NCBI RefSeq assembly: GCF_002161065.1
Contig: NZ_NFLV01000003.1
Coordinates: 1-64,000, forward strand
From: Eubacterium sp. An11
Lineage (GTDB): Bacteria; Bacillota; Clostridia; Lachnospirales; Lachnospiraceae
Direction of reading: 5' to 3'
DNA: 64,000 bases
The notes under the pieces were generated by a model, which was not told the DNA's origin, ran no database searches, and was given only the letters and a program-made list of their open reading frames with translations. The translations under genes were made by a program, and so were the position numbers. This document shows, piece by piece, positions 25,650 to 31,469 of the stretch. Every line of letters starts with the position of its first letter. Positions within the stretch are counted from its first letter, which is position 1.

Positions 25650-26201
25650 TTATTTTAACGCCTTTCCATCGGAAAATGCTTTTCCTACGCAGTCGCCAAG
25701 TCTATAATATTTAAGTCCTACGGTGTCATAGGTGATCGGAGCAAATTTCTCCAGACTGATGGTTCCCTCCTGATCGAGGATACTTTCATCGGCACTGACG
25801 TTGACAATCCGTCCGAGAATCAGGCCGTCCAGAACTTTGATCATCTCACACTCCAGCGTCAGTGGCAGTTCGTTGATGACAGGCGCATTGACAAAATCAC
25901 TCTTTGTTGTGGTAAAACCGGCTTTTTCCATCTTGCGCGGTTCGTCTTTTCCGGAAACCAGCCCCACATAGTCGCAGGCAGCCACATGATCGACATCCGC
26001 CATGCTGACAGTAAATGCTTTGTTTGTCATGATGTTATCGGTGGTTTGATGGCTGCCGAGGGAGATGATAATCTCATCCATGCCAACGATACCGCCCCAC
26101 GCGGCGTTCATGGCGTTGGATTCTCCTTTTTCATTGTAGCTGCCGATGATCATTACCGGCTGTGGGAACAGAAAAGGTTTCGCACCAAAATTTTTTCTCA
26201 T
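25650..26201 (-). CDS. Flavin reductase-like (FMN split-barrel) protein
   Basis: This 183-residue protein has the flavoredoxin/flavin-reductase pattern, FPQPVMIIGSYNEKGESNAM then NAAWGGIVG, followed by FTVSMADVDHVAACDYVGLV. It probably binds FMN and passes electrons to a partner. The start at 26199-26201 follows GGAGG. It is 18 bases after the alcohol dehydrogenase gene, so the two are likely co-transcribed. Confidence 0.85.
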   Translation of the reverse strand: MRKNFGAKPFLFPQPVMIIGSYNEKGESNAMNAAWGGIVGMDEIIISLGSHQTTDNIMTNKAFTVSMADVDHVAACDYVGLVSGKDEPRKMEKAGFTTTKSDFVNAPVINELPLTLECEMIKVLDGLILGRIVNVSADESILDQEGTISLEKFAPITYDTVGLKYYRLGDCVGKAFSDGKALK

Positions 26202-26219
26202 AATATATACCTCCATTTT

Positions 26220-27407
26220 TTAACGATAAGATTCTTTATAAATAGACACACAGTCTTCGTCGGTCAGTTCGCAAGGATCGTTCAGGAAATTGATGCCAAG
26301 CGTTGCTCGGGCGTTCTTTGCCATTTCTTCAAATTCTTCCGGTCTGATGCCATAATCAGACATTTTCAGATCTGCTACGCCGCATTTTTCCTGAAGATTC
26401 ATCAGTGCGGTGATAAAGTCTTCCGGTTTGTCCGCGTCTTTCATTCCCATGAGCTGTGCCATTTCAATGAAACGATCGTCGCACACATGGCGGTTGACGA
26501 AAAAGCTGTAGTATGCTTTGGAAATCATGATAAGTCCAGCTCCATGAGGCAGATTTTCATGATAAGCGCTCATGGCGTGCTCCAGTGCGTGGGCGCTGGT
26601 ACAGGAACCTACGCACATCTGAATACCGGACAGGTAGCTGCCAAAGGCCACTTTGCCCATGGCGTCCAGATCCTGCGGATCCTCAATGGTTGTTACCAGA
26701 TTCTCTGCCACATTGCGGATGGCTTCACTGGCAACCATCTTGCTCATTTCATTTCTCTGTCTGGAAATAAAACCTTCTGTGCTGTGGAACATGGCATCAA
26801 AGCCCTGATACGCCTTAAACTTTGACGGGACGGTTGTCATCAGTTCCGGATCGATGATGGCGAGAACCGGCATGGTGCCTGGACCAAATACGCCGGTCTT
26901 TTCCTTTGTTTCCGGATTAGTGATCACGCCGCCGGCATCCGTCTCAGAACCGGTGCCTGCCGTCGTGGTGATCGCGACGATCGGGAGACAAGGATTAGCC
27001 GGCCACTGTTTTTTCCCGCTTCCAAGCATCACGTAATCCCACAGGTCGCCGCCGTTGGTCGCCATGAGACCGATGGCTTTGGCTGCATCCATGACACTGC
27101 CGCCGCCCAGGGCCACGATGAAATCACAGCCATTTTCACTGGCGAATCGTCCTCCTTCTTCCACAACCGGTTTGGTCGGGTTGGCTCCCACTTTATCAAA
27201 AATCACATAGTCCACGCCAGCCTGGGACAGCTCGTTCTCCAGACGGTCCAGATACCCGTTGGCCCGTGTGGATTTTCCGTTGGAAATGACGACCAGGGCC
27301 TTCTTACCATGCACTGCACCCATGGGTGAGCTGATCTGTGTATGAAGTTCACTGAGCTTTCCCGGCCCGAAAATTGCATTGGTGGAAACAGCGAAATTAA
27401 AACTCAT
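26220..27407 (-). CDS. Iron-containing alcohol dehydrogenase
   Basis: The 395-residue protein is a type III alcohol dehydrogenase. Nucleotide binding is indicated by IVALGGGSVMDAAKAIGLMA. The metal-binding region contains FHSTEGF and HALEHAMSAYHENLPHGAGL, with histidines for iron. It probably interconverts an aldehyde or ketone with an alcohol using NAD(P)H; the substrate is unknown (BdhA/YqdH-like). Its leader contains a nested hairpin. It is followed by the flavin reductase-like gene. Confidence 0.9.
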   Translation of the reverse strand: MSFNFAVSTNAIFGPGKLSELHTQISSPMGAVHGKKALVVISNGKSTRANGYLDRLENELSQAGVDYVIFDKVGANPTKPVVEEGGRFASENGCDFIVALGGGSVMDAAKAIGLMATNGGDLWDYVMLGSGKKQWPANPCLPIVAITTTAGTGSETDAGGVITNPETKEKTGVFGPGTMPVLAIIDPELMTTVPSKFKAYQGFDAMFHSTEGFISRQRNEMSKMVASEAIRNVAENLVTTIEDPQDLDAMGKVAFGSYLSGIQMCVGSCTSAHALEHAMSAYHENLPHGAGLIMISKAYYSFFVNRHVCDDRFIEMAQLMGMKDADKPEDFITALMNLQEKCGVADLKMSDYGIRPEEFEEMAKNARATLGINFLNDPCELTDEDCVSIYKESYR

Positions 27408-27659: not shown

Positions 27660-28880
27660 CTATTCTTTTTCTTCCATAGAATCAATAATGGCGTCGGCCA
27701 GCATATCAAGCTCTGCTGCCTTGCTGTCATGCAGAGCGGACGCCAGACTCAGACGTTCATTGAGTACCGTCATATTTTTCATCTCTTCATCCACAAACTT
27801 CTGCATCAAATCTCCGGATTTACATGCCCACGAACCATTTTCGATGATGGCAAAGGTCCTGTGCTGCAGGTTCAGCGCTTTGATGTGCATCAGATAATCG
27901 TGCATCACCGGGTAAATTCCCAGATTATATGTCACGCTGGCCAGTACGATGTGACTCAGACGGAACGATTCCGATACCAGCTGGGAAACATGGGTGTTGG
28001 AGACATCGTAAACCCACACATTGGTCATTCCCTTTTCGCAGAGCCTGGAAGCCAGCGCCTGGGCTGCCGCCTCCGTGTTGCCGTACATGGACGCGTAAGC
28101 GATCATGACGCCTTTTTCTTCCGGCTCATAACGGCTCCATTTGTCATATTTGTCAATGAAGTACATCAGATTCTCCCGCCATACCGGTCCGTGCAGCGGA
28201 CAGATGTATTTAATCTGATCCAGGATACCGGAAGCTTTCTTCAGCAGAAGCTGCACATGAGGGCCATACTTGCCAACGATGTTGGTCAGGTATCTTCTGG
28301 CGTCGTCAATCCAGTCTCTGTCAAAGTTCATTTCGTCTGCAAAGAGTTTACCGTCCAGTGCTCCGAAGGAGCCAAAGGCGTCGGCGGAGAATAAAGCGCC
28401 GTTGGTGGTGTCGAAGGTCACCATGGCTTCCGGCCAGTGTACCATCGGAGCCTCCACGAAGGTCACCGTATGGCCGCCGAAGTTGTAAGTGTCTCCTTCT
28501 TTGACCTCGATGAGTTCATGGCTGTCCACATGGAAACCGAATTGCCGCATGAGCATGAAGGATTTTTCTGTGGAGATGATCTTCACATCCGGCCAGCGCA
28601 GAAGAATCTCCTCGATGGACGCGCCGTGATCCGGTTCCATATGGTTAATCACCAGGTAATCGAGAACTCTCTCGCCCAGGAGATGCTCTACATTTTCCAG
28701 AAGCTGCCGGCAGGCGGACCAGTCTACCGTATCGAACAAAACGGTTTTTTCGTCCAGCAGCAGATAAGCGTTGTAGGATACTCCGCGGGGAATCGGGTGA
28801 ATATTTTCAAATAAATGTAATCTATGATCGTTTGCCCCTACCCAGTAGAGGTCTTCAGTTATATTTCGTACACAATACAT
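27660..28880 (-). CDS. fprA: FprA-type flavodiiron protein
   Basis: This 406-residue A-type flavoprotein reduces O2 to water (or NO to N2O) in anaerobes. The metallo-beta-lactamase-like part carries the diiron ligands H80, E82, D84 and H85 (NHMEPDH), then MVHWPE, SADAFG and CPLHGPV. The C-terminal flavodoxin domain begins near residue 256 with IAYASMYGNTEAAAQ. No rubredoxin is attached, but the gene 14 bases upstream encodes a rubredoxin domain that could feed it. It is the last gene of the Rrf2-led operon. Confidence 0.93.
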   Translation of the reverse strand: MYCVRNITEDLYWVGANDHRLHLFENIHPIPRGVSYNAYLLLDEKTVLFDTVDWSACRQLLENVEHLLGERVLDYLVINHMEPDHGASIEEILLRWPDVKIISTEKSFMLMRQFGFHVDSHELIEVKEGDTYNFGGHTVTFVEAPMVHWPEAMVTFDTTNGALFSADAFGSFGALDGKLFADEMNFDRDWIDDARRYLTNIVGKYGPHVQLLLKKASGILDQIKYICPLHGPVWRENLMYFIDKYDKWSRYEPEEKGVMIAYASMYGNTEAAAQALASRLCEKGMTNVWVYDVSNTHVSQLVSESFRLSHIVLASVTYNLGIYPVMHDYLMHIKALNLQHRTFAIIENGSWACKSGDLMQKFVDEEMKNMTVLNERLSLASALHDSKAAELDMLADAIIDSMEEKE

Positions 28881-28894
28881 CCTCTTTTCCTCCT

Positions 28895-30805
28895 TTACGC
28901 TTCAATAAATTTATCCTTGCCTTCCGCACATTCCGGACATACCCACTCTTCCGGCAGTTTTTCAAAGAGGGTTCCCGGTGCGATCTCAGCATCCGGATCG
29001 CCAAGTTCCGGAACATATTCATAGCCGCAGCCGCCGCAGACATATCTCTTGCCGATCGGTTCCGGCTTAGGAGGCGTCGGACGTTTCATCTTCACCATAG
29101 GAGGCGCCGGCTGTTTTTCTCCGGTATCCAGTGCCTTTGTGAGGAGCGGAAGAAGCTCATTCACATCGCCCACAATGCCGTAATCGCAGTTTTTAAAGAT
29201 CGGAGCCCCGGCATTTTTATTGATGGCAACGATGGTGGAAGCATCTTTGATTCCTTTCAAATGCTGCACCGCACCGGAAATACCACAGGCAATGTACAGA
29301 TTACCGACAAACTTCTGACCGGACATACCCACGTAGCGGTCAAGCGGTACATACTGGAGAGTTTCCGCCACCGGACGGGACGAGCCGATGGCCGCGCCAC
29401 TGGCTTTCGCCAGATCTTCGATCAGTTTCATGTTTTCTTTGCTGCCGATACCCTGTCCGGCGGAAACCACCCGCTCTGCCTGGGAGATCGGAGTATCTAT
29501 CGGAATACCAACAGTAAAATCATGGCCGTCTTTTTTCAGGTGCTCTACCAGCTCCGCAACCTTTTCTTCGGCAGAGCCATCCCGGAAAATGTGATTCTTC
29601 CTGATGCCGGTCACCGGGGCCGGTTTCTTTGGTCTGCTGGAAGAACCATGCTCACTTTTCGGCGGTTTTCCCATGATGGAGGAGGCGATAACCACTCTCT
29701 GAATCTCGTTGGTTCCTTCGTAAATGGTCGTAATCTTCGCATCACGGTACGCACGTTCCACATCCATACCTTTCATGAAACCGGCGCCGCCGTGAATCTG
29801 CATGGCGTCGTTGGTGACTTCCAGAGCGATATCCGAAGCGTACATTTTTGCCATGGCGGCCTCGGTGCCGTAAGATTCATGATGCTCTTTCAGCTCGGCT
29901 GCCGAATAAACGAGGAAACGTGCGCAGCGCAGTTTTGTTGCCATATCGGCCAGCTTAAAGGAAATGGACTGCTGGAATCCGATCGGTTTTCCAAACTGTA
30001 CTCTCTCTTTTGCATACTCCACTGCCGCGTCGTTGGCTCCCTGAGCGATGCCCAGCGCCTGAGCCGCGATACCGATGCGGCCGCCGTCCAGAGTAGCCAT
30101 GGCGATTTTAAACCCTTCGCCTTCTTTTCCGAGGAGATTTTCCTTCGGAACGATAACGTCGTTAAAAATTAATTCTGCTGTGGAAGAAGAACGGATGCCC
30201 ATTTTGTCATAATGGTCGCCAAAATCAAAGCCCTTCCAGCCCTTTTCCACGATGAATGCCGAGATACCGCGGGTTCCGATGTCCGGCGTGGTAACGGCAA
30301 ACACCACATAGGTATCGGCCTTCGGTGCATTGGTGATAAAGATCTTTCCTCCGTTTAATACGTAATGGTCTCCTTTGAGAACCGCCGTTGTTTCCGTGCC
30401 ACCCGCATCGGAACCGGCATTGGTTTCTGTCAGACCGAAAGCGCCCAGCTTTTCACCTTTTGCCAGAGGTACCAAATATTTCTGTTTCTGCTCTTCTGTT
30501 CCAAAAGCAAAAATCGGCCAGGAGCCAAGTGAAACATGGGCCGATAAAATAACCCCTGTTCCGCCGTCTACTCTGGAAAGTTCTTCCACTGCGATAGCGT
30601 AGCTGATCACATCCAGTCCCGCGCCGCCGTATTCCTTTGGATAAGGGAGTCCCATGAGACCCATCTCTCCCATTTTTTTCACGGCTTCTTCCGGGAAACG
30701 ATTCTCCTTATCCAGGAGAAATGCGATCGGTTTCACTTCTTTCTCCGCAAAAGCTCTCACTTTCGCCCGAAAATCTTCGTGTTCCTGTGACGTTTTAAAA
30801 TACAT
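28895..30805 (-). CDS. Acyl-CoA dehydrogenase / ETF-alpha C-domain / rubredoxin fusion
   Basis: The 636-residue protein has three redox modules. Residues 1-380 are an acyl-CoA dehydrogenase ([30 protein letters not shown]363 in [10 protein letters not shown]). Residues about 440-560 are the FAD-binding C-domain of electron-transfer flavoprotein alpha ([32 protein letters not shown]). Residues 587-634 are rubredoxin with C590, C593, C623 and C626. An ETF beta subunit and the ETF-alpha N-domain are absent. A natural reading is electron flow from acyl-CoA to FAD to rubredoxin to FprA, encoded directly downstream. The reaction direction and acyl substrate are unknown. Confidence 0.92.
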
Positions 30806-30822: not shown

Positions 30823-31266
30823 TTATGATTTCCTGTTGTTTGTCTGTCCCTCCTGTGTGGAAGGCCCAAATATCAAATCATACAGGCTGTGACTCTTCAG
30901 TTCATTGTCCAGATTCCTCTGAATCACAGATAATCTCTGATGAATCTGGCAGATCTGCCTGTTCTGTTCCCGCCAGCTGCACTCATATCCCTGCTGCATA
31001 CAGGCGGACAGCAGCGTCACTTCATCCATTGCTACCATCAACTCATATAAAGAAATGTCATGCAAATCCACCTGCAGGCGGCATCCTCCCTCCGCCCCTC
31101 GGGTCACCGACAGGATACCGGCACGATGCAGCTTCCTCACGATCTTGTAAGCAAACTGCTGAGGAATCAAATGTTCTTCCGCAATGTGAACGACACTTTT
31201 CTGACTGCCATCTGAAACCGCGCGTATAATTCGAAGCGCATAATCTGTCTCTCTTGTAAGAATCAT
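30823..31266 (-). CDS. Rrf2-family regulator, possibly iron-sulfur
   Basis: This 147-residue regulator has the Rrf2 N-terminus ([15 protein letters not shown], then [19 protein letters not shown] and [12 protein letters not shown]). Three cysteines, C89, C96 and C106, are placed like the cluster ligands of IscR/NsrR-type members, so it may sense O2, NO or iron-sulfur status. It is the first gene of the operon, 17 bases before the dehydrogenase fusion, and its promoter carries a perfect palindrome. This supports redox control of the flavodiiron pathway. Confidence 0.88.
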
Positions 31267-31321: not shown

Positions 31322-31360
31322 TGATGAGCTCATCATATCAATCTGGACAAAAATAGTCAA
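31322..31360 (-). promoter_or_regulatory. Promoter and operator of the Rrf2-fusion-fprA operon
   Basis: TTGACT (complement 31355-31360) and TATGAT (complement 31332-31337) are 17 bases apart on the minus strand. TGATGAGCTCATCA at 31322-31335 is a perfect 14-bp palindrome overlapping the -10 box. Confidence 0.8.
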
Positions 31361-31469
31361 GATTAAATGCAGAGAAAATAGTAACTTTGTATATTGTGTT
31401 AAAAATTACTCGCATGTTTTTAGTTATATTTACTCATTTACTTGTTTTCCGAACAGCTTTGACCCTCAG

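Follow-up and report, generated by a model that had tools for sequence, protein, structure and literature searches.

A candidate Rrf2 operator upstream of a probable butyryl-CoA oxygen oxidoreductase locus in Eubacterium sp. An11

The rrf2, bcr, and fdp genes in the window, the 64,000-nucleotide stretch of Eubacterium sp. An11 DNA analyzed here, very probably constitute a butyryl-CoA oxygen oxidoreductase (BOOR) locus, taken whole with the electron path and the Rrf2 repression proposed below. The fusion, the gene pair, the function, and the link to a regulator are already published, so the system is not the new finding that the earlier note had presented. The additions made here are a candidate operator, the ligand pattern of the regulator, and one relative that lacks the rubredoxin.

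BOOR was characterized in 2024 by Bystrom and Wolthers, as cited in PMC12288474, PMC12630350, and PMC13404960. The Fusobacterium nucleatum BCR is described as a fusion of butyryl-CoA dehydrogenase, the EtfA C terminus, and rubredoxin that is bicistronic with a flavodiiron protein (FDP), and BCR and FDP together oxidize butyryl-CoA and reduce O2 to water (PMC12288474); this biochemistry is likewise summarized in PMC12630350. BOOR is reported to be encoded by many Firmicutes, butyrogenic gut bacteria among them (PMC12288474). The window locus has the same three-domain order and the same adjacent FDP in a two-gene unit as the F. nucleatum system and differs from it in being headed by rrf2 and a candidate operator. 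The assignment rests on the domain order, the gene pair, the residues, and a Fusobacterium gastrosuis relative (L065), with F. nucleatum itself known from descriptions. The F. gastrosuis BCR is 77% identical to the window protein over its full length and the adjoining FDP is 69% identical, and no match to the window Rrf2 lies within 4 kb on either side. Multidomain FDP systems driven by NAD(P)H (C. difficile, Syntrophomonas, Trichomonas) resemble the window system in FDP-based O2 reduction and added electron-transfer domains; as described, they take electrons from reduced pyridine nucleotides, whereas the window system would take them from acyl-CoA.

Table 1. Features of the rrf2-bcr-fdp locus, in window coordinates
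Feature	Position	Strand	Remarks
fdp (fprA): class A flavodiiron protein, ODP metallo-lactamase + flavodoxin	27660..28880	(-)	406 aa
bcr: acyl-CoA dehydrogenase + ETF-alpha FAD domain + rubredoxin fusion (butyryl-CoA reductase-type)	28895..30805	(-)	636 aa
rrf2: Rrf2-family regulator, Asp8, Cys89/96/106, His109 (CxxH)	30823..31266	(-)	147 aa
Sigma-70-type promoter TTGACT-17-TATGAT before rrf2-bcr-fdp	31332..31360	(-)	-35 inside candidate operator
Candidate Rrf2 operator, 25-bp imperfect dyad AATCTTGACTATTTTTGTCCAGATT, IscR type-1-like	31340..31364	(-)	19/25 to consensus

The fused dehydrogenase

The bcr reading frame is continuous, with no internal stop. Pfam places the acyl-CoA dehydrogenase domains at residues 6-118 (Acyl-CoA_dh_N), 122-217 (_M), and 229-377 (_1), followed by the ETF_alpha FAD domain (440-520) and rubredoxin (587-633). 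No match to an ETF N-domain is found by Pfam at E ≤ 1e-3, in agreement with the earlier note that the ETF-alpha N-domain is missing, and it is plausible that the FAD domain works inside its own chain. Relatives were taken as the 80 best matches listed, which are 75-89% identical to the window BCR. Glu363 and Cys590/593/623/626 are identical in all 79 full-length sequences (the window and 78 of the 80 loci), as are Ser495, Gln514, and His515, and Arg477 of the ETF domain is invariant in 30 of 30 sequences. From the families, we take Glu363 to be the catalytic residue and the four cysteines to be the rubredoxin ligands. The three-domain chain, its coordinates, and these five residues thus stand as the earlier note gave them, on the strength of the reading frame, Pfam, and conservation. 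In 78 of the 80 best relatives listed the fusion spans its full length, and none of the 78 has an internal stop; the frameshift or stop between domains that was sought as a refutation is absent, and the chain is neither a frameshift nor an assembly artifact.

An AlphaFold2 model of BCR built with 30 sequences has a mean pLDDT of 81.7 and a pTM of 0.65. Its weak segments are 125-137, 199-205, 383-395, in the link from the dehydrogenase to the ETF domain, and 578-581, ahead of the rubredoxin. One match to the fusion in the window genome is full length; eight others cover the dehydrogenase or the ETF part (four ACAD and four EtfA matches).

The window BCR probably uses butyryl-CoA as substrate. 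That it is a BOOR relative with another acyl-CoA donor, such as propionyl-CoA or a branched acyl-CoA, and with a role other than butyrate-linked O2 removal, is improbable. Among NCBIfam models, acryloyl-CoA reductase AcrC scores best on the dehydrogenase half, which speaks for another donor, as do the additional ACAD and EtfA matches in the genome; the AcrC score of 495.9 bits, however, is well below the cut-off of 640, and butyryl-CoA and short-chain dehydrogenases are among the relatives of solved structure nearest in sequence. The identity across the 80 best relatives listed also argues for a single function, and a crt-hbd-bcd-etfB-etfA run, with products named from the translations, is present on contig C14 of the window genome.

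The probable flavodiiron partner and the proposed electron path

The fdp gene starts 14 bases downstream of bcr on the same strand, and rrf2 lies upstream; both open reading frames bear out the arrangement first described. His80, Glu82, Asp84, His85, His148, Asp167, and His230 of FDP, which are presumably the diiron-ligand positions, do not vary among the 72 aligned proteins (the window and 71 of the 78 relatives' FDPs, those long enough). Co-occurrence with fprA across genomes, suggested by the earlier note as a check, is borne out: 78 of the 80 best BCR relatives listed have a co-directional FDP downstream, at gaps of 11-584 bases. In the two relatives without one (L026 and L047), the contig ends at that point.

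At E ≤ 1e-200, BCR matches occur in at least 6 of 150 same-family genomes and at least 6 of 398 genomes of a phylum sample, the window's own genome included in each; owing to this cut-off and a loose first look, both counts are lower bounds. Apart from the window's own, five family genomes have BCR; FDP is adjacent in four, and the fifth (G122) has its sole FDP match, at 60% identity, on another contig than bcr. FDP is likewise adjacent in four of the five other phylum-sample genomes with BCR; the fifth is the rubredoxin-less locus L105. The window genome encodes a second FDP with 44% identity, and the partner of BCR is therefore not fixed by necessity.

Two observations concern the neighborhood. 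Two neighboring convergent FDP genes, 85% and 57% identical to the window FDP, lie beside one bcr at G056:C9:14916-17385 (in part L092). Downstream of fdp on the same strand (25650-27407, minus strand), the window encodes an iron-dependent alcohol dehydrogenase and a flavin-reductase-like protein; the former has a weak match, on the opposite strand, at 1 of the 80 best relatives listed (L020), and the latter has no match around any of the 80.

In the proposed mechanism, BCR would oxidize butyryl-CoA with Glu363 as the base and FAD as the acceptor. The electrons would then pass to the FAD of the fused ETF-alpha domain and next to the rubredoxin iron, an order inside the chain that is likely from its domain content. 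The rubredoxin would reduce the FMN of the adjacent FDP, and the FDP diiron site would reduce O2 to water. Crotonyl-CoA would be re-reduced by bifurcating Bcd-EtfAB, so that O2 would be removed while Rnf-linked energy conservation continues. A cycle of BOOR, Bcd-Etf, and Rnf is drawn in a review (PMC12288474), and the crt-hbd-bcd-etfBA cluster, an RnfC match above its cut-off, and the second FDP in the window genome fit that cycle.

A single relative bears on the role of the rubredoxin. L105:1501-3186 encodes a 561-residue chain of ACAD and ETF-alpha domains that stops after the latter and has no rubredoxin; its identity to residues 1-560 of the window BCR is 63%. No FDP lies within 1.5 kb on either side, and the FDPs in its genome (G241) are distant, at about 30% identity. 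Both the absence of a neighboring FDP and the distance of those in the genome are expected if the rubredoxin serves FDP, and this one case fits the view that the rubredoxin exists to feed FDP. A second rubredoxin-less relative was sought in 12 further genomes of the G241 family and none was found, G241 alone giving a match.

An Rrf2 regulator with a mixed ligand pattern

The rrf2 gene ends 17 bases upstream of bcr, and rrf2, bcr, and fdp are probably carried on one transcript. The protein matches PF02082 (77.8 against a cut-off of 30) and TIGR00738 (73.9 against 73.3) and falls below the NCBIfam cut-offs for IscR (38.3 versus 207.55 bits) and NsrR (41.4 versus 182 bits). An adjacent, same-strand rrf2 accompanies 25 of the 80 best BCR relatives listed and is absent from 55, which places the switch outside the core system.

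The aspartate and three cysteines, the predicted cluster ligands, are present in 25 of 25 Rrf2 proteins. The aspartate is at position 8, or at 7 in L019 and L022, whose matches begin one residue late. By reading, a Cys-x-x-His follows from the third cysteine in 24 of the 25, with asparagine in L038. The cluster ligands of IscR are given as C92, C98, C104, and H107 (PMC3899308), and Asp8 is given as a ligand of NsrR (preprint PMC13404960). The window Rrf2 can thus be read from its residues as a hybrid sensor that combines an NsrR-type Asp8 with an IscR-type Cys3-His, and it is assigned to neither equivalog. It shares the Cys3-His pattern with IscR and differs in having aspartate at position 8, in heading an O2-reductase operon, and in scoring far below the IscR cut-off.

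In gut Clostridia, an Rrf2 regulator (UniRef50_C0FN14) is described beside BOOR in a July 2026 preprint, which proposes derepression or induction of BOOR once the Fe-S cluster of the regulator is oxidized (PMC13404960). Compared by description, the two regulators are alike in being Rrf2 proteins with Asp8 and three cysteines beside bcr-fdp; the candidate site and the CxxH motif are what the window adds.

The candidate operator and its alternatives

The operator rows comprise 22 rrf2 loci and the window, 23 sites in all; L053 and L055, whose Rrf2 proteins are 35-36% identical, and L054, which is masked, were left out. Sites were picked by TTGAC and a -10 element at 16-18 bases, and the right half of the dyad, which lies in the spacer, took no part in the picking. 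All 22 comparable rrf2 promoters have the layout of the window, with 17 bases in the spacer. T, C, and A occur at offsets +13, +14, and +16 in 23 of 23 sites, where they pair with left-half A, G, and T. Of 253 cells in the dyad, 164 are paired; permuting the columns of the right arm gives 74 (sd 21), and none of 5000 permutations reaches 164, which is not a probability because the rows are related.

The window and each of the 22 rrf2 loci carry the arrangement TTGAC-N8-TCNA-N6-TANNNT, a pattern drawn from the same 23 rows. Where rrf2 is not adjacent, none of 54 loci has it in the 400 bases preceding bcr, and it appears in none of 2200 shuffles. The 54 are from the 55 loci that lack an adjacent rrf2; L043 has no upstream DNA, and L011 contributes 281 bases only. 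Within 1500 bases, 1 of the 54 (L060) carries the arrangement, at 400-1500 bases upstream of bcr. The L053 and L055 promoters do not have it. Matrix scores are 20.5-41.9 for the 23 sites and at best 15.8 for loci without adjacent rrf2; L015 and L022 fall to 13.1 when left out in turn, so the matrix score alone gives no clean separation. Two held-out rrf2 loci (L102 and L103) carry CTTGACTTTTTTTGTCCA with a 17-base spacer to TATGAT and, as near-copies, count as one case. The arrangement is absent from L101, L104, L105, and L092-L096, which have no rrf2 match within 1.5 kb. Operator-like stretches also occur upstream of bcr in L058, L059, L062, and L069 in the absence of an adjacent rrf2, for example GTATACTAAATTAGTCCAGATT (L059) and AATCTGGACTAAAATAGTAT (L069).

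These distributions bear on the possibility that the dyad is merely a conserved promoter and no Rrf2 site, which is unlikely. The left half includes the -35 box, common to promoters anyway, the rows are related sequences chosen by requiring TTGAC and a -10, and the bare half-site [AG]TCCA[AG] also occurs in 17 of the 54 loci without adjacent rrf2. Against a plain promoter stand the invariant T, C, and A in a spacer half unused in picking and the confinement of the whole arrangement to the rrf2 loci at the frequencies given above.

Similarity alone links the candidate operator to IscR: it resembles the 25-bp type-1 consensus ATASYYGACTRWWWYAGTCRRSTAT (PMC3899308). The 23 sites match this consensus at 16-20 of 25 positions (16 only in L022; mean 18.3), and a control that keeps TTGAC has a mean of 13.35, an sd of 0.42, and a maximum of 14.78 in 2000. 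The overlap with the promoter is also shared with the type-1 site of autoregulated iscR (PMC3899308). No description of the candidate operator was found in the papers searched, and the main text of preprint PMC13404960 names no such site. A perfect 14-bp palindrome over and after the -10, TGATGAGCTCATCA (31322-31335), was dropped as an operator candidate because it is missing from the other 24 readable rrf2 upstream regions.

A 22-base pattern searched in the window genome with up to two mismatches finds the operator (on both strands) and one other place at two mismatches; the reversed control has one match, so the search at this stringency gives no sign of a wider regulon. A looser pattern with one mismatch finds only this site in the window, against a chance expectation of 0.36.

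An Fe-S-loaded Rrf2 dimer would probably sit on the dyad over the -35 box and repress the operon, and damage to the cluster by O2 or reactive species would release it; Rrf2 would in this way be the switch of the BOOR operon. The earlier note drew a path from acyl-CoA to O2 or NO; its O2 part is upheld by the F. nucleatum biochemistry and its NO part is not, the BCR-FDP complex of that organism being reported to have no NO reductase activity (PMC12288474). An FDP acting mainly as a BCR-fed NO reductase under an NsrR-like NO sensor is accordingly highly improbable. Asp8, the NsrR-type fourth ligand, is compatible with such a sensor, and preprint PMC13404960 likens the BOOR-adjacent regulator to NsrR; the regulator, however, also has the IscR Cys3-His pattern, and the candidate site is IscR type-1-like and, by eye, unlike the NsrR palindrome gATGyAT-N5-ATrCATc (PMC1274295).

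It is an evenly balanced question whether Rrf2, with Asp8 and Cys3-His, represses only its own BOOR operon through the IscR type-1-like site over the -35 box, the module of rrf2 and operator being gained and lost as a unit. Mapped on a quickly built tree of 79 BCR proteins, the label of rrf2 plus operator (22 rows) needs nine changes, at least four of which are forced by well supported branches. The window BCR lies near Oscillospiraceae and Butyricicoccaceae sequences and is in no well supported set. If Rrf2 is such a dedicated switch, destruction of its cluster by O2 would switch on the combustion of butyryl-CoA.

BOOR couples butyrate metabolism to O2 removal in anaerobes, and its trigger therefore bears on the survival of butyrate producers in O2. 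The candidate operator makes the published guess on the regulator testable with one 25-bp DNA.
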